Assembly (NCBI GenBank): GCA_015065175.1
Contig: SVQV01000013.1
Location: 1 to 32,960 of the forward strand
DNA length: 32,960 nucleotides
Reading direction: 5' to 3'
Origin: Oscillospiraceae bacterium
GTDB taxonomy: Bacteria > Bacillota > Clostridia > Oscillospirales > CAG-272
Of this stretch, positions 20,484-31,225 are shown in pieces. The translations under genes were made by a program, and so were the position numbers. How positions within the stretch are numbered: the first letter of the stretch is position 1; each line of letters begins with the position of its first letter. Below the pieces are notes generated by a model. That model worked only from the letters and a program-made list of their open reading frames with translations. It was not told where the DNA came from and searched no databases.

Positions 20484-20975
20484 TCATTTCTTAAAGATAT
20501 AATTTTTATGTTTTTCAAGTACGAAAAACAAAATCATTCCCAATATTCCGCCCGACACTGTTTCTCCCAAAAATACAGATATCAAATGTATATAGTATGC
20601 TTCTTTTAGTCCGTATACATATATGAGTATAAAAGGAATGATGACCGAGTTGGAAATAATGTTCGGTATAGGTGCGAGCCATTTGCTCCTGTTTTTTAAT
20701 ATCGAAGCGGCTATAGCGCCGATAAGAGTAGCGACACTTCCGAAAACTATGTCCCAGACGGCGCATCCTGTAAGCAGGTTTGAAAGTATGCAGCCGACAA
20801 ATAACCCGGGAATAGCCGCAGGGGTAAAATAGGGAAGAACAGTAAGAGCTTCCGAAAGCCTTACTTGAATTGCGCCGCTTGCCAACCCGAACATATGTGA
20901 AACATAAGTCAGTACGACATATAAAGCGGCAATCATTGCGCCTGTCGTCAAGCTTCTGATTTTTTTTGAGTGCAT
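20484..20975 (-). CDS. queT: QueT family transporter (predicted ECF S component for queuosine precursor)
   Basis: MHSKKIRSLTTGAMIAALYVVLTYVSHMFGLASGAIQVRLSEALTVLPYFTPAAIPGLFVGC; preceded by preQ1-I aptamer. Confidence 0.9.
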   Translation of the reverse strand: MHSKKIRSLTTGAMIAALYVVLTYVSHMFGLASGAIQVRLSEALTVLPYFTPAAIPGLFVGCILSNLLTGCAVWDIVFGSVATLIGAIAASILKNRSKWLAPIPNIISNSVIIPFILIYVYGLKEAYYIHLISVFLGETVSGGILGMILFFVLEKHKNYIFKK

Positions 20976-20982
20976 AAAAAGT

Positions 20983-21027
20983 CTCCTTTAGTTTTGTTTT
21001 AGGTGAGGAAGGTCTCGAACTCACCGC
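20983..21027 (-). promoter_or_regulatory. preQ1 class I riboswitch
   Basis: Minus-strand GCGGTGAG-TTCGAGACCTTC-CTCACC-TAAAACAAAACTAAAGGAG: 6-bp P1 (21020-21025 with 21002-21007), 12-nt loop beginning TTC.AG, A-rich tail; loop CCUU can pair with tail AAGG, part of the queT SD. Confidence 0.88.
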
Positions 21028-23403: not shown

Positions 23404-24987
23404 TTATTCGCTCTTTACAGCTTCGGAGTACTTGCGGGCAAGCTCGCGGAGCGCATCAAAATTTTTCTCTTTTATCAGTTTATTGTTGTAAAGATTGGAG
23501 CCGACTCCTATGCCGCAGAAGCCCATGTTTAAAAAGTCTTTCGCGTTATCCGCATTGACTCCGCCTACAGCAAGCAGCTTTGCATCAGAAAGCGGTGCGC
23601 AAATTGCTTTTACATAATCTGCACTTACCTGATTGGCGGGGAAGAGCTTAACGAAATCAGCACCGCTGTTCATAGCTGCGGCGATCTCCGTGGCGGTATA
23701 AGCCGCAGGGATCGACACCAATCCTAATTTGCGTGTAAGTGAAATAATCTCTGTGTCGCAGTTTGGTGAGATTATGTAAGACGCTCCCGCTTCAAAAGCG
23801 GCTATAAGCTCTTCCTTTCTCGTTACAGTGCCCACGCCGATATACATTTTGTCGCCGAGGGCTTCTACAAGCATTCTGACGATATCGGCAGTTTCCTGAG
23901 GTGTTTTTTTACCTGAACGGTCAAAGGTTATCTCAGCTAAGCGAATTCCGCCTTCGTATATCGCCTTCATTGCTTCTACGCAGCTTTCCTTTTCAGCACC
24001 TCGGACGATTGCTATGATCTTTTCCTTTTCCACAGCTTCGATTATAGCCTTTCTTTTTGTGCAGGCGTTATAGATGCGCTTTATCAGCATCGAGCCGTTA
24101 ACCATAGCGTCGGATGCTTCTTCATCGCTAAGGAATACCGCATTTTCTTCTCCTAATAACAAGGAGTAAATATATCGGAGAGTTCTTCTTCCGCCGACAT
24201 ATATTTTCTTGCCCTGAGCAATACGCTTTATTAAATCAACATCCTCTCCTATTACGGCACCGTATAAAAATGAGGATAATTCATCTATACCTATTTTATT
24301 TTTAGCCATCACTCTTATGTGGAACAGAGCAGCGTTCAAGCCGTTTTCCTTTGCATATGACGCCCCCTTCAGCACTTCTGAATCCGCAATTTCAAATTTG
24401 TGAGAAACCTGTCCTGCGAGGATAGTGTTTGTAACAATACTGTCAAGAAGCTCTCCGCTGAAGGTGGTGTGGAAGTCGAGGATTTCTCCTTCGTCGCTGA
24501 TGCTCATTATTTTATTGTGTGTACCGGGCAATACAAGAACACAGGCTTCCGACATAGATAAAGATGATACAAGACCGATAGCCTCTGTTTCTTCGCCTCT
24601 CATTACGTCTACGGCTTCATTTTCCTTCATTTTCTTGACACCGGGAATAAACAAAAACGGAATATTGATGCCGTCTATCTTCTCAAATCGAGCGTTTTCT
24701 GCCAAAGCAAGCAGGTCTGTCGGTAAAGCGATGTGCGGTAATTCAAAAAGACCGAACTCGCTTCCCGCCATTCCCACGGCGACTATTTTTTCTATATCAC
24801 TCTCGCCTATTCCGCATTTGCTGATAAGAGAGTCAATAAGAGCCTTTGCGCTGTCACAAAGAGCGCCGTGCCCGTTCTTTTTTCCAAAACTTGCGCCAAA
24901 GCTTCCCTTGACACGCTCTACGACTTTTCCATCACGGCACAAAAACAATTCTGTGTTGGTTGTACCCATATCCATAACTATGTACAT
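23404..24987 (-). CDS. fusion: 2-dehydro-3-deoxygalactonokinase (DgoK) + KDPG/KDPGal aldolase
   Basis: N-term MYIVMDMGTTNTELFLCRDG, FIPGVKKM...DVMRGEETEAIG (DgoK); C-term EKEKIIAIVRG, GGIRLAEITFD, IGVGTVTRKEE, FVKLFPANQVSADYVKAI, VGGVNADNAKDFLNMG (KDPG aldolase with Schiff-base Lys). Start after AAAGGAG at 24987. Confidence 0.93.
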   Translation of the reverse strand: MYIVMDMGTTNTELFLCRDGKVVERVKGSFGASFGKKNGHGALCDSAKALIDSLISKCGIGESDIEKIVAVGMAGSEFGLFELPHIALPTDLLALAENARFEKIDGINIPFLFIPGVKKMKENEAVDVMRGEETEAIGLVSSLSMSEACVLVLPGTHNKIMSISDEGEILDFHTTFSGELLDSIVTNTILAGQVSHKFEIADSEVLKGASYAKENGLNAALFHIRVMAKNKIGIDELSSFLYGAVIGEDVDLIKRIAQGKKIYVGGRRTLRYIYSLLLGEENAVFLSDEEASDAMVNGSMLIKRIYNACTKRKAIIEAVEKEKIIAIVRGAEKESCVEAMKAIYEGGIRLAEITFDRSGKKTPQETADIVRMLVEALGDKMYIGVGTVTRKEELIAAFEAGASYIISPNCDTEIISLTRKLGLVSIPAAYTATEIAAAMNSGADFVKLFPANQVSADYVKAICAPLSDAKLLAVGGVNADNAKDFLNMGFCGIGVGSNLYNNKLIKEKNFDALRELARKYSEAVKSE

Positions 24988-25049
24988 ATCAATTTCTCCT
25001 TTTGAAGTCATTTTCGGAGGCAGTCCGACGAAAAAATATTAACACTAAA

Positions 25050-25101: not shown

Positions 25102-26067
25102 TTATGTATTTATGTCCCGAATATAATTTGATATAATTCCTGTAAAAACGCCTGATATAAGTATAATAAAAATATCGACAGGTGCGAGTGCGATGAAGGG
25201 AAGTCCTTCGAAAAACGATCCTTGCCCAAATCTGTAAAGATTTCCGTTCAGGAGTATCATTTCACCTATGTACATAACGAGAGTAATGATTGAAGCAGTT
25301 ACAGAAGGAAGAAGTACGGAAAGTGATTTTTTCTTCTGTAATGTGAATGATGTGACGTAAACTCCTACGGTCATTCCGAAAAGAACAAAAAATACGCTCA
25401 TAAGAATGGCTGACAAAGGCGAAACGTTTATATCCCCGTTTCTGTAAAAAGCAGTAAAGCAAGCCCAAATGCACATTAAAAGAAAAACAACACTTGCGAC
25501 TGACTGTATTGTAAGCGCTTTGCATCGGCTTTTGTCGCCCGTTTTTATCATTTCGGCGAAGCCGTAAAAGCAATTCAGAATTGATATTATCAGAACCAAT
25601 GATATTATGTAAAAGTGAAGCTTAAAAGCAGGGCTGTATTCCCCCATAAGAATATCAACCTCTGTCAGCTTTCCCGACTCAAACACCTCAGGCGTTACGG
25701 CGCACAAGGACAATTGCCAATCCTTTAACTGAGCAAAGCTTCCCGTTACCGTTCTTGTAACCGTGACAGTGTGTTCAAATATCAATTCCGATGTGAAAAA
25801 TATTGCAGTTGAAATTCCCGTGCCGCCAAGCAGAGAATATTTCTTGAAAACTCTGATGAAAACAGGCATAAGCGCAATTCCGACAATCAGAGATAGCGCT
25901 ATTGGAGTATACGGAATGATATATTTAGGATAATCCTCCGCCTTGACAGTGCCAAATCGTATCATATCTGATATGACCGATATACCCATGTAAAGAGGAT
26001 AAAAAGACGCGATAAGAATGCCTATACAGGAAAAAAGGCAGTAGGTATTAAAGGTTTTGTTTTTCAT
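25102..26067 (-). CDS. polytopic membrane protein of unknown function, third gene of BlaI/M56 operon
   Basis: MKNKTFNTYCLFSCIGILIASFYPLYMG...; about 8 hydrophobic segments with a likely exposed stretch after TM3; ATG at 26067 behind GAAAGGAG, overlapping the M56 gene end. Confidence 0.85.
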   Translation of the reverse strand: MKNKTFNTYCLFSCIGILIASFYPLYMGISVISDMIRFGTVKAEDYPKYIIPYTPIALSLIVGIALMPVFIRVFKKYSLLGGTGISTAIFFTSELIFEHTVTVTRTVTGSFAQLKDWQLSLCAVTPEVFESGKLTEVDILMGEYSPAFKLHFYIISLVLIISILNCFYGFAEMIKTGDKSRCKALTIQSVASVVFLLMCIWACFTAFYRNGDINVSPLSAILMSVFFVLFGMTVGVYVTSFTLQKKKSLSVLLPSVTASIITLVMYIGEMILLNGNLYRFGQGSFFEGLPFIALAPVDIFIILISGVFTGIISNYIRDINT

Positions 26068-26080
26068 TTTGTATCTCCTT

Positions 26081-26995
26081 TCAAGATGCATTTGTTAGAA
26101 AAGCATAAGCCAAAGCAAGCAAAACAGCGAAAAAAGCCACGGCAGAAGCCGCCGAAAGCTTCCGATAAGAGAGTATGTTTTCAATTCTCGGTTTTATTTT
26201 GGCACCGCCGAATGTTGCGGAGAAGAAAGCTTGTTTTTCTATCGAGGACAGTAAAGCGCGCGCATATTCCTTCTTTTGAGCCTCGCTGCATTTTTTTAAT
26301 ACGGCTTCATCACAGGCAAGCTCAATATCCGAGTAGAAAGACTTCAAGAAAAGCCAGGAAAACGGGTTGAACCAATGAATGCAGGAAATGAACAACGCCG
26401 CTATACGAACAAGATTATCCATACGTTTGATATGTGCCCTCTCATGCATTAAAATGTATTCAAAGCAGTCTTCTTCATATTCGTAAGGGAAGATGATTTT
26501 AGGCTTTATTATACCGTAAACGGCAGGGATAGTTATTCTCCCCGATAAATAAATATTATCTTTAAAAAGCTGAGCCTCTTTTATTTCTTTCATTGCGGAA
26601 AAGTAAGAAATGATAATTATCAGCAGTGCCATAAAAAACACAGTTATCCATATGAGAGCCGCTGTATCGAATATTTTTTCAAGTAGCTTTAGCTTGTACG
26701 TGATAGGGAAATAGCTTTTTGCTCCCATAACATGATTCATCATCGTAAATACAGAAGAGCCATCTGTTTCGTATACTGTAACCGTTTTTGCGGTGAATTT
26801 TGATATAAGCGCCATAACGCCATATTTGCTTGAAATGCCTACAGGGAAAGACATTCTTATAAACGGTATCAGATACAGCCATACTGATACACGGCGCGGC
26901 AGTTTTTTAATAAGACGGATAAGCAATACAGGTATCCCGCAAATAGTTGCCGCAATACTCATATTAAATATCCAGTAAAATATTTCACCGAGCAT
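26081..26995 (-). CDS. M56 family metallopeptidase, BlaR1-like, without penicillin-sensor domain
   Basis: TIPAVYGIIKPKIIFP, HERAH (HExxH) zinc motif, FYSDIELACDEAVL; ends about 20 aa after a final TM, so no C-terminal PBP-like domain. Confidence 0.93.
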   Translation of the reverse strand: MLGEIFYWIFNMSIAATICGIPVLLIRLIKKLPRRVSVWLYLIPFIRMSFPVGISSKYGVMALISKFTAKTVTVYETDGSSVFTMMNHVMGAKSYFPITYKLKLLEKIFDTAALIWITVFFMALLIIIISYFSAMKEIKEAQLFKDNIYLSGRITIPAVYGIIKPKIIFPYEYEEDCFEYILMHERAHIKRMDNLVRIAALFISCIHWFNPFSWLFLKSFYSDIELACDEAVLKKCSEAQKKEYARALLSSIEKQAFFSATFGGAKIKPRIENILSYRKLSAASAVAFFAVLLALAYAFLTNAS

Positions 26996-27000
26996 AGCTT

Positions 27001-27357
27001 TTACCCTTTGTCGATGAGTTGGCGAAGGGATTCTATTTCCTCCTTTGTAAGCTCCTCGTCCTCAATTAAAGCGGAAAAAAGGGCTTTTCTTGAGCCTCCG
27101 AACAGCTTGTCTATCAAGCCCTGAGTCTCACTCTTACAGACGTCTGCCCTTGAGATAAGAGAAGAACATATGAATCCAGGCTCGGTGCGCTTGATATATC
27201 CCTTTGCTTCGATCTTTTTTATTACGGTATAGGTGGTGTTTTTATTCCAGTCGAAGTCTCTTTCGGCAAGCATACTAAGCGCTTTTGCGCTGATTGGCTC
27301 ATTTGCCCAAATCAATTCCATTACTTTAAGCTCGCTATCAAATAATTTTTGTGACAT
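27001..27357 (-). CDS. BlaI/MecI/CopY family transcriptional regulator
   Basis: LFDSELKVMELIWANEPISAKAL, WNKNTTYTVIKKIEAKGYIKR winged helix; ATG 27357 spaced 8 nt behind GGAGG. Confidence 0.94.
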   Translation of the reverse strand: MSQKLFDSELKVMELIWANEPISAKALSMLAERDFDWNKNTTYTVIKKIEAKGYIKRTEPGFICSSLISRADVCKSETQGLIDKLFGGSRKALFSALIEDEELTKEEIESLRQLIDKG

Positions 27358-27371
27358 TGTCATAACCTCCG

Positions 27372-27405
27372 GACTATTACTATAGTATATACTATCACAA
27401 TAGTC
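27372..27405. promoter_or_regulatory. predicted BlaI-type operator (34-bp near-perfect palindrome)
   Basis: GACTATTACTATAGTATATACTATCACAATAGTC; arms match at 14 of 17 positions, central 14 bp ATAGTATATACTAT fully symmetric; overlaps the -10 box of the regulator promoter. Confidence 0.8.
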
Positions 27406-27417
27406 TGAGTTTGTCAA
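27389..27417 (-). promoter_or_regulatory. promoter of blaI-M56-membrane protein operon
   Basis: Minus strand TTGACA, 17-bp spacer, TAGTAT. Confidence 0.85.
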
Positions 27418-27451: not shown

Positions 27452-27480
27452 TTGACAAAACACGTGTATTTTTATATAAT
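27452..27480 (+). promoter_or_regulatory. promoter of MATE gene
   Basis: TTGACA, 17-bp spacer, TATAAT; spacer holds ACACGTGT palindrome. Confidence 0.88.
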
Positions 27481-29127: not shown

Positions 29128-30528
29128 TTATATTAAATTTTTTCTTTCCGATTCTTCCTTGAAAATAGAAGAAAGCTGATAAGTATATACTATCCAGACA
29201 ATAGATATTACCGCAAGAACTAACCAGAACCAGCCGTAGCTTGACATAAATACTTCATCTTGAGAGTATTCGGGACGAAGCTTTACCTTTTCCGTGAATG
29301 ACATCAGATAGGTATAGGCTACGTAAGCGACAGATGAAACCGAACCGATGCCCGCCCAAATCAATGAGCGGATTTTAAAGCTTCTGTGCAGAGAATTATT
29401 ATAGTTTATGTGGGCAGGATTTCCGTCTGAAGAATAACCGACGGTTTTCTTTGCAAATTCCGAGAGCGCAAAGGCAATAGAGAAGAAGAAGCCGATTGAG
29501 ATAATGCATTCTATAAAGGTGCATACAAAAACAAGATCATAAGCCTGCTTTGCGGAAACTATTCTTTCAATATCCGAATATGTATATTCTTTTTGGAACA
29601 GGTCAAGAAAATGAAGGGAAATGATGCTTGAAAGGAAATATGCTATACCGAGCGGAATCGCGAGCTTTATGCGCTTTGTATGATTTCTCATCATAACCAC
29701 AGCAAAGACCATTAAAGTAGCACTGAAAAAGTCGGGCAGACAATTTTTGTTATCCAAGATCAAGTCAAAATTCAACCATACCGCTATGAATAAAAGAAGA
29801 ATTGCGATGCAGTTGCAGCGATGTGTGTAAAATCCTGTAATTTCAGCATGCTTTTCACTGTATATCTGAGCGATCGAGTGACCAATCTTATGGTTGGCTG
29901 ACACTGATTTTATGTAACGGATAAATTTAACTATCCAGATAATTCCTACAATAAGAGTTATGAACGCCGCTAAAACAGAGAACGCAGGATAGTATTTTGC
30001 TATGTTAATTTTTAATTGAGATACAGTGCCGAGTCTGTCGCTTACCGATATAAGTGACATTTCGGGTAAGCAACAAGCTACCATTTTCAAAGTGAGAAAT
30101 ATAAGAGTAAATTTTTGCGGAGACTTTACAGAAGCTGACGCTTCGTTTTCCGAAAAACGTGCTTCCAGATAGAATAGCCCCTCAAAAAATGCATTGAATG
30201 CGGGGTAAATATATATCAGCTCAATAATGGAATATACAAGCGAGAAAACGGATACAATGGAGCGCTCTGAAATGTGTGTCGAAGAAATAGCGAGCATAAT
30301 GAACAGAGCAGGAAGCTTGGAAAGCGAGACCCAAAGGAGCTTTAAAAATCCCTCTCGCGCATCATCAAAATGCGGAATTACGTTTGAAATCCTTCCCAGC
30401 GCTCTGTAAAGAAGAATATAAGCAATGAAGTCGGGCGCAAAATCAAACAGGCTGATATTTGGTGTAGCTAAAAAGAATGCGGCGGCAATAACAGAGCCGT
30501 ATCCTATAATACCGTTGTTGTTTTTCAT
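29128..30528 (-). CDS. polytopic membrane protein of unknown function
   Basis: Intact 466-aa ORF with many hydrophobic segments; starts 5 nt after the upstream ORF end. Confidence 0.8.
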   Translation of the reverse strand: MKNNNGIIGYGSVIAAAFFLATPNISLFDFAPDFIAYILLYRALGRISNVIPHFDDAREGFLKLLWVSLSKLPALFIMLAISSTHISERSIVSVFSLVYSIIELIYIYPAFNAFFEGLFYLEARFSENEASASVKSPQKFTLIFLTLKMVACCLPEMSLISVSDRLGTVSQLKINIAKYYPAFSVLAAFITLIVGIIWIVKFIRYIKSVSANHKIGHSIAQIYSEKHAEITGFYTHRCNCIAILLLFIAVWLNFDLILDNKNCLPDFFSATLMVFAVVMMRNHTKRIKLAIPLGIAYFLSSIISLHFLDLFQKEYTYSDIERIVSAKQAYDLVFVCTFIECIISIGFFFSIAFALSEFAKKTVGYSSDGNPAHINYNNSLHRSFKIRSLIWAGIGSVSSVAYVAYTYLMSFTEKVKLRPEYSQDEVFMSSYGWFWLVLAVISIVWIVYTYQLSSIFKEESERKNLI

Positions 30529-30532
30529 AGCG

Positions 30533-31225
30533 TTATTTTTTCTTTCTTTTCTTTTTGTATTGTTCTTTGAATTGTCTTTCTGCCTTTTTTTGCTCTATGA
30601 TGCGATCTTCTATTTTGCTTTCTGTTTTTCGCAAGCGGTTTAAAAAGGCAAAGCTTGATTCTTTTCGCTCCATGTCCTCGTCACCTTCAAGACATATCCA
30701 CATGTAGCAGGAGTAGAAGAGAACAGCATTGAGAATAAGACAGACAAATCCAAAGAGCATAACAGGTAAAATCGCATAACGGGCAAATTTTGCAAATGCC
30801 TCGTTATTAAGCTCTGTGCAAATCTGTAATACGTAATATAAATATATAAAAAGTCTGTTTCTGAAAGCTCTTACACGTATATTTGGAATGTCAAGCTCAA
30901 ATGCAAGCGTCTCTATTCCTTTAAGGAGCAGAGCAGTATATATAAGCTTGAGTATGGCGCTGAGTATAGCGTAATAAGAATATACCAGCTCTTTGTTTGA
31001 TACAAGCTTGATATCAAGGATAGTAAGAAATTCAAAAGCAAAGAAGCAAAGCCCTGCTATGCATAGCGGAATAATGGCATATAAGCTGCTTTTAAAATAT
31101 TTGTTATGACGGGACAAAAGCAATAACGCATACAGTATGAGCAGAAATGAAATTATATCCGTAAATCCGTTATAAACAAAGTTTATTCCTATAACAGACC
31201 CGATAAACAGCCACCCGAAGCCCAT
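30533..31225 (-). CDS. membrane protein of unknown function, translationally coupled to secA
   Basis: 230-aa ORF; TGATG stop/start overlap with secA (31223-31227); C-terminal highly basic tail ending QYKKKRKKK. Confidence 0.82.
   Translation of the reverse strand: MGFGWLFIGSVIGINFVYNGFTDIISFLLILYALLLLSRHNKYFKSSLYAIIPLCIAGLCFFAFEFLTILDIKLVSNKELVYSYYAILSAILKLIYTALLLKGIETLAFELDIPNIRVRAFRNRLFIYLYYVLQICTELNNEAFAKFARYAILPVMLFGFVCLILNAVLFYSCYMWICLEGDEDMERKESSFAFLNRLRKTESKIEDRIIEQKKAERQFKEQYKKKRKKK

Follow-up and report, generated by a model that had tools for sequence, protein, structure and literature searches.

How an M56 protease without a penicillin-binding domain senses its signal is a question that has been raised for mycobacteria (PMC5473688, PMC9834060). 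The same question is posed by a three-gene locus of an Oscillospiraceae bacterium, in which a BlaI-like repressor, a sensorless M56 protease and a membrane protein, here called MEM, are encoded in a row. For these families it is established that BlaI represses and that activation of the M56 protein removes BlaI (PMC7593790, PMC9834060); at the present locus we infer BlaI binding, proteolysis, an extracytoplasmic signal and an activity of MEM. The locus is probably a sensorless BlaI/M56 proteolytic derepression switch with an undescribed envelope protein as its output, and the operon probably serves an envelope-stress response. The window, i.e. the whole stretch of DNA that was analysed, comprises 32,960 nt (contig SVQV01000013.1 of GCA_015065175.1, positions 1 to 32,960). 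Its relevant features are as follows.

27001..27357, minus strand: BlaI/MecI-family repressor, 118 aa; Pfam PF03965, E 1.2e-23; aligned end to end with 1okr and 1sd4
26081..26995, minus strand: sensorless M56 metalloprotease, 304 aa; PF05569, E 6.8e-39; 21-member alignment; PDB match to BlaR1 (8exp), E 1.8e-6
25102..26067, minus strand: MEM, eight-helix membrane protein, 321 aa; undescribed family; 43-member alignment
27389..27417, minus strand: promoter, sigma70-type, TTGACA-17-TAGTAT; conserved in the BlaI upstream regions of relatives
27391..27404, ACTATTGTGATAGT on the minus strand: BlaI-type operator 1; between −35 and −10, overlapping −10
27373..27386, ACTATAGTAATAGT: BlaI-type operator 2; 18 bp from operator 1, 3' of −10

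The start of BlaI was placed at the second ATG (27357; 118 aa), in agreement with the Shine–Dalgarno spacing and with the relatives, which begin near M(S)QKLFDSE; the protein would have 120 aa if the upstream ATG (27363) were used. A TTG start at 27417 in the list of open reading frames was rejected as it falls inside the promoter, and an early MEM start given by the ORF finder was rejected as the relatives begin at MxxK. With the corrected starts the BlaI–M56 and M56–MEM gaps are 5 and 13 nt, respectively. The preliminary description had called the genes overlapping or adjacent; given the conserved MEM start at 26067, they are adjacent and do not overlap. The single promoter that it had assigned to the three genes corresponds to the sigma70-type element listed above, whose presence was confirmed and which is conserved. 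MEM is probably the last gene of the operon, because a separate promoter serves the next gene (23404–25011). No beta-lactamase or PBP gene was found among the window genes, again as had been described.

This next gene (minus strand; promoter 25078–25050) encodes a protein of 535 aa in which 2-keto-3-deoxygalactonokinase and KDPG/KHG aldolase domains, two steps of one sugar-acid pathway, are joined. On the other side, a divergent MATE gene was considered as part of the system and rejected, as a perfect sigma70 promoter of its own (27452–27480) serves it and no homologous neighbour was found in the compared loci. Elsewhere in the window, two polytopic proteins of 466 and 230 aa with no Pfam family are encoded at 29128–31225 (minus strand), directly 3' of a SecA gene that begins outside the window. 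An open frame of 169 aa (20518–21024, minus strand) beside a NUDIX gene matches no Pfam family and may not be a gene.

The protease, the repressor and the operator

The M56 protein matches Peptidase_M56 (PF05569) with 134.2 bits (cut-off 31). Its HExxH (residues 184–188) and ExxCDE (residues 225–230) motifs are invariant in 21/21 aligned members. The blaR1_generic model scores 79 bits (cut-off 400) and covers only profile positions 162–318 of 585; the BlaR1/MecR1 models match over the membrane and protease part only. A C-terminal penicillin-binding sensor is absent from the window protein, as the preliminary description had claimed, and from all 21 aligned members. The window protein ends in TNAS directly after TM4, and throughout the subfamily (21 members) TM4 is followed at once by an invariant TN and two or three further residues. 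Because this C-terminal TN after the last helix is invariant, the sensorless M56 is, as judged from the alignment, an evolved fixed state, neither a truncated nor a broken BlaR1. In the alignment, F262 corresponds to F284, the autocleavage residue of BlaR1, and the GG after the F262 position is invariant (21 members). The loop between TM2 and TM3 (residues about 53–108), equivalent to EL1 of BlaR1, has N87, A92, Y95 and P97 invariant in the same 21 members. In BlaR1, EL1 occupies the groove of the sensor in trans, and the beta-lactam displaces it (PMC9834060).

The repressor matches Penicillinase_R (PF03965) with 84.1 bits (cut-off 22.6), upholding its earlier reading as BlaI-like; the winged-helix domain extends over its full length, and it can be aligned end to end with the MecI and BlaI structures 1okr and 1sd4. 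Its A98–L99 aligns with N101–F102 of S. aureus, the position near which repressors of the BlaI/MecI family are cleaved. The CopY_TcrY model gave 63 bits, below its cut-off of 122, and the window BlaI has no C-terminal CxC motifs.

The BlaI gene is preceded by two inverted repeats of the form ACTAY-N4-RTAGT with centres 18 bp apart, which read ACTAT-N4-ATAGT in the window; they span the −35/−10 interval and the bases after −10 of the TTGACA-17-TAGTAT promoter. A TACANNTGTA core has been reported for BlaI, MecI and CopY operators (PMC7253601). This core is absent from the window's operator sites, and because it is missing they are classed as a putative variant operator, the operator as such being still present. 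The tandem site was found in 64/79 distinct upstream regions of related BlaI genes. TTGAC lies just 5' of the operator in all 64 operator-bearing regions (64/64), and TAGTAT follows at a spacing of 17 in 54 of them.

Genomes of the order were searched for the tandem operator by pattern, with the reversed pattern as a control. With no mismatches allowed, the pattern occurred in 15/394 genomes and the reversed control in 0/394. MEM is encoded in 14 of the 15 genomes with the exact operator, compared with 23/394 overall (P about 6e-19). Single-copy operator matches elsewhere in the genome (C154 and C168) were left out of account, the reversed control being equally frequent and the second site missing. 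At the end of another contig of the same genome (G000, contig C51; L123, 8034–8390) are a second operator half and a BlaI gene; the reading frame of this gene diverges about two thirds of the way along. A remnant copy, contamination or misassembly could explain it.

MEM, LIP and their distribution in Clostridia

The open reading frame of the 321-aa polytopic protein named in the preliminary description was confirmed. MEM has no family in NCBIfam or Pfam; CbiM, the best Pfam hit (11.9 bits, cut-off 23.1; E 0.2), was rejected as below the cut-off. No PDB chain was matched by the MEM family profile in a sequence search, and Foldseek searches with the MEM model gave best E values of 2.0 (PDB) and 1.1 (BFVD), none below 1. 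The profile and structure searches proposed earlier thus leave the family uncharacterized; its novelty refers to Pfam, NCBIfam, PDB and BFVD, the sequence of the C. difficile membrane protein BlaX lying outside the comparison. No MEM was found in the plasmid and phage records searched, and a mobile origin was rejected on this ground.

The 43 aligned MEM sequences have a mean column identity of 62%. The AlphaFold2 model (pLDDT 77.7, pTM 0.80; low confidence in one outer loop) consists of long helices, consistent with eight membrane spans. By the positive-inside rule, both termini are predicted to be inside and four conserved loops outside. Conserved positions lie mainly in the outer loops and helices, and there is no long cytoplasmic loop. 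Even the most distant relatives keep, among other residues, E94, E98, W117, Q118, C199, R209, E269 and D298, and acidic residues within the helices are invariant. On its topology and invariant acids, MEM is most readily interpreted as a transporter, flippase or membrane enzyme that would protect the envelope.

In many loci a lipoprotein of about 200 aa with a lipobox (LIP) is encoded between M56 and MEM. LIPs have no Pfam match. DUF4362 (PF14275), considered as a family for LIP, was not supported either: a profile comparison with one PF14275 member gave a probability of 1.7%. The LIP model is poor (pLDDT 64.7) and its fold search gave no significant match. In two loci (L060, 1780–3960; L082, 1–1881) MEM continues at its C-terminus into a LIP domain, the two being joined by a repetitive acidic linker and one extra membrane segment; the position of this segment before the LIP domain agrees with the predicted MEM topology.

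MEM was found at 63 loci of one genome collection, and among the sampled genomes its frequency is roughly 11% in the family, 6% in the order and 5% in the class. The three-gene order was examined across Clostridia, as had been suggested, in the 53 loci with enough upstream DNA, window included: BlaI–M56 lies directly upstream of MEM or LIP–MEM in 35 (14 BlaI–M56–MEM and 21 BlaI–M56–LIP–MEM), with the operator at 33/35. The third gene is therefore conserved next to M56/BlaI and belongs to no characterized family in the databases named above. Other families of the class have the operon too, in one case (G901) on a single-contig chromosome. Linkage, counted at 36 loci, exceeds chance, as does the correlation of BlaI, M56 and MEM distances (0.80–0.84, with 0/1000 shuffles as high), a value to which shared descent contributes; the linkage and the correlations are partly due to shared ancestry. 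In 15/53 loci neither BlaI/M56 nor the operator is nearby. Gene context switches many times on the MEM tree, so that lone MEM genes are scattered and do not form one clade. Two distant MEM relatives (L226, 5126–6094; L227, 4987–6093) are without BlaI/M56; within a few genes of them, genes of the ABC-2 export and Gld-like auxiliary kinds were recognized by eye.

The cargo behind the operator varies. LIP is not essential, because the window and several relatives are without it. The tandem operator precedes LIP alone in one stretch (L158, 3592–4289) that holds no BlaI, M56 or MEM; it precedes LIP–BlaI–M56 in L159, and in L163 it is followed by two further lipoproteins and then BlaI–M56. A second lipoprotein family (391–605 aa, 28–43% identical) follows operator–BlaI–M56 in L156 (4050–5867), L165 (3932–5107) and L222 (1809–3035); the genomes concerned either lack MEM or encode it elsewhere. 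As seen in these loci, the constant core is operator–BlaI–M56 and the cargo is variable, usually exported.

Role of MEM and the proposed switch

The preliminary description had left the third gene as a sensor, peptidase substrate or effector. The effector reading, as a regulated output, is now supported by detached operator–MEM loci, and the sensor and substrate readings are less favoured. In three cases (L053/G549, G215 and G588) the tandem operator stands directly before MEM with no adjoining BlaI/M56. In the L053 genome operator–BlaI–M56 is on a different contig, and G215 has only a more divergent BlaI–M56 pair without this operator in front. BlaI–M56 with the operator also occurs in several genomes where MEM was not found, some of them with other lipoproteins. 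In a further locus (L066, 3728–6843) an ECF sigma factor, an anti-sigma-like membrane protein, MEM and a long LIP are encoded in a row with no BlaI/M56; L015 is apparently the same locus from another collection. Because the operator precedes detached MEM genes, BlaI–M56 occurs without MEM and a MEM–LIP pair stands under an ECF sigma factor, MEM is most likely a regulated output rather than an obligate receptor part.

Most loci link MEM to the sensorless M56, the extracytoplasmic loops of both proteins are conserved, the two diverge in a correlated manner, and the exported LIP is fused to MEM in two loci. These points would suit a split receptor in which MEM, with LIP where present, binds an outside signal, contacts EL1 of M56 and activates it, replacing the penicillin-binding domain of BlaR1 in trans. 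Regulon membership may be compatible with such sensing in trans, because BlaR1 controls its own gene too. We nevertheless consider a split receptor unlikely: several genomes have this M56 subfamily and operator but no MEM, some genomes or loci have MEM with no operator or M56 nearby, one MEM–LIP pair adjoins an ECF sigma factor, and the separate operator–MEM loci better fit an output. Quite unlikely, too, is the proposal that MEM (with LIP where present) is a detachable BlaR1-like sensor that is read in trans by an M56 retaining EL1, and that it represents a new class of envelope sensor controlling its own lipoprotein regulon.

An indirect response to beta-lactams or cell-wall damage, with MEM as a cell-wall stress gene, would have a parallel in the mycobacterial BlaR, which has no sensor and is described as regulating BlaC via BlaI (PMC5473688, PMC9834060), but it is improbable here, there being no beta-lactamase or PBP in the window and the operator-linked cargo in relatives being MEM and lipoproteins. 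It is still harder to credit MEM as an M56 substrate or as a negative regulator restraining M56 (a feedback brake): it is co-transcribed behind M56 and both are integral membrane proteins, but it has no long cytoplasmic loop, is conserved mainly in its outer loops and helices, and is commonly found with no M56 nearby.

For the favoured derepression switch with MEM as its output, the following sequence of events is proposed. At rest the operon would be repressed by two BlaI dimers bound to the tandem operators that overlie the promoter. A signal from outside the cytoplasm would reach the membrane part of the M56 protein, where the conserved TM2–TM3 loop, the equivalent of BlaR1 EL1, is the likely receiver, and would activate the cytoplasmic zinc protease, which would inactivate BlaI. 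With BlaI lost, BlaI, M56 and MEM would all be induced; in relatives the same operator would also induce lipoproteins, sometimes from separate loci. MEM would act as the effector, working with LIP where LIP is present.

Comparison with known systems and significance

The BlaR1–BlaI and MecR1–MecI systems of Staphylococcus and Bacillus share with the window locus an M56 protease with HExxH and a BlaI-family repressor, paired operators over the promoter, the EL1 loop between TM2 and TM3 and the alignment of F262 with F284. They differ in that the window M56 is without the penicillin-binding sensor and without beta-lactamase or PBP cargo, the window operator is without the TACANNTGTA core, and cargo of the window type is MEM and lipoproteins. 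The mycobacterial BlaR–BlaI pair (Rv1845c–Rv1846c), likened here by its descriptions, shares a sensorless M56 paired with BlaI (PMC5473688, PMC9834060), but its BlaI controls blaC, cytochrome bd and ATP synthase genes, and no MEM or LIP is reported. Systems of the CopY/CopR type share a repressor of the winged-helix superfamily and two operators before the operon, whereas they are controlled by metal without a protease, and CopY has the C-terminal CxC that the window BlaI does not. ECF sigma/anti-sigma stress operons are represented by the L066/L015 locus, where MEM–LIP lies behind an ECF sigma factor and an apparent anti-sigma factor, whereas the window uses BlaI/M56.

Apart from work on the systems of S. 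aureus, C. difficile and mycobacteria, the literature searched yielded little. In mycobacteria an M56 protein without a sensor is already known next to BlaI (PMC5473688, PMC9834060); the preliminary description was silent on this precedent, on the operators and on the frequent fourth gene, LIP. New, as far as the literature and databases searched show, are the fixed Clostridia M56 subfamily with its operator, MEM, LIP and the modular lipoprotein regulon.

The locus offers a compact, class-wide Clostridia case of sensing by an M56 protein without a penicillin-binding domain. Its operator is defined, its protease is fixed in the sensorless form and its candidate partners are few. MEM and LIP are two undescribed families with a regulatory handle, and from the operator motif regulon members can be predicted in genomes. 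An effector role would make MEM a candidate envelope-defence protein in gut bacteria; with a sensor role it would throw light on how sensorless BlaR proteins work.
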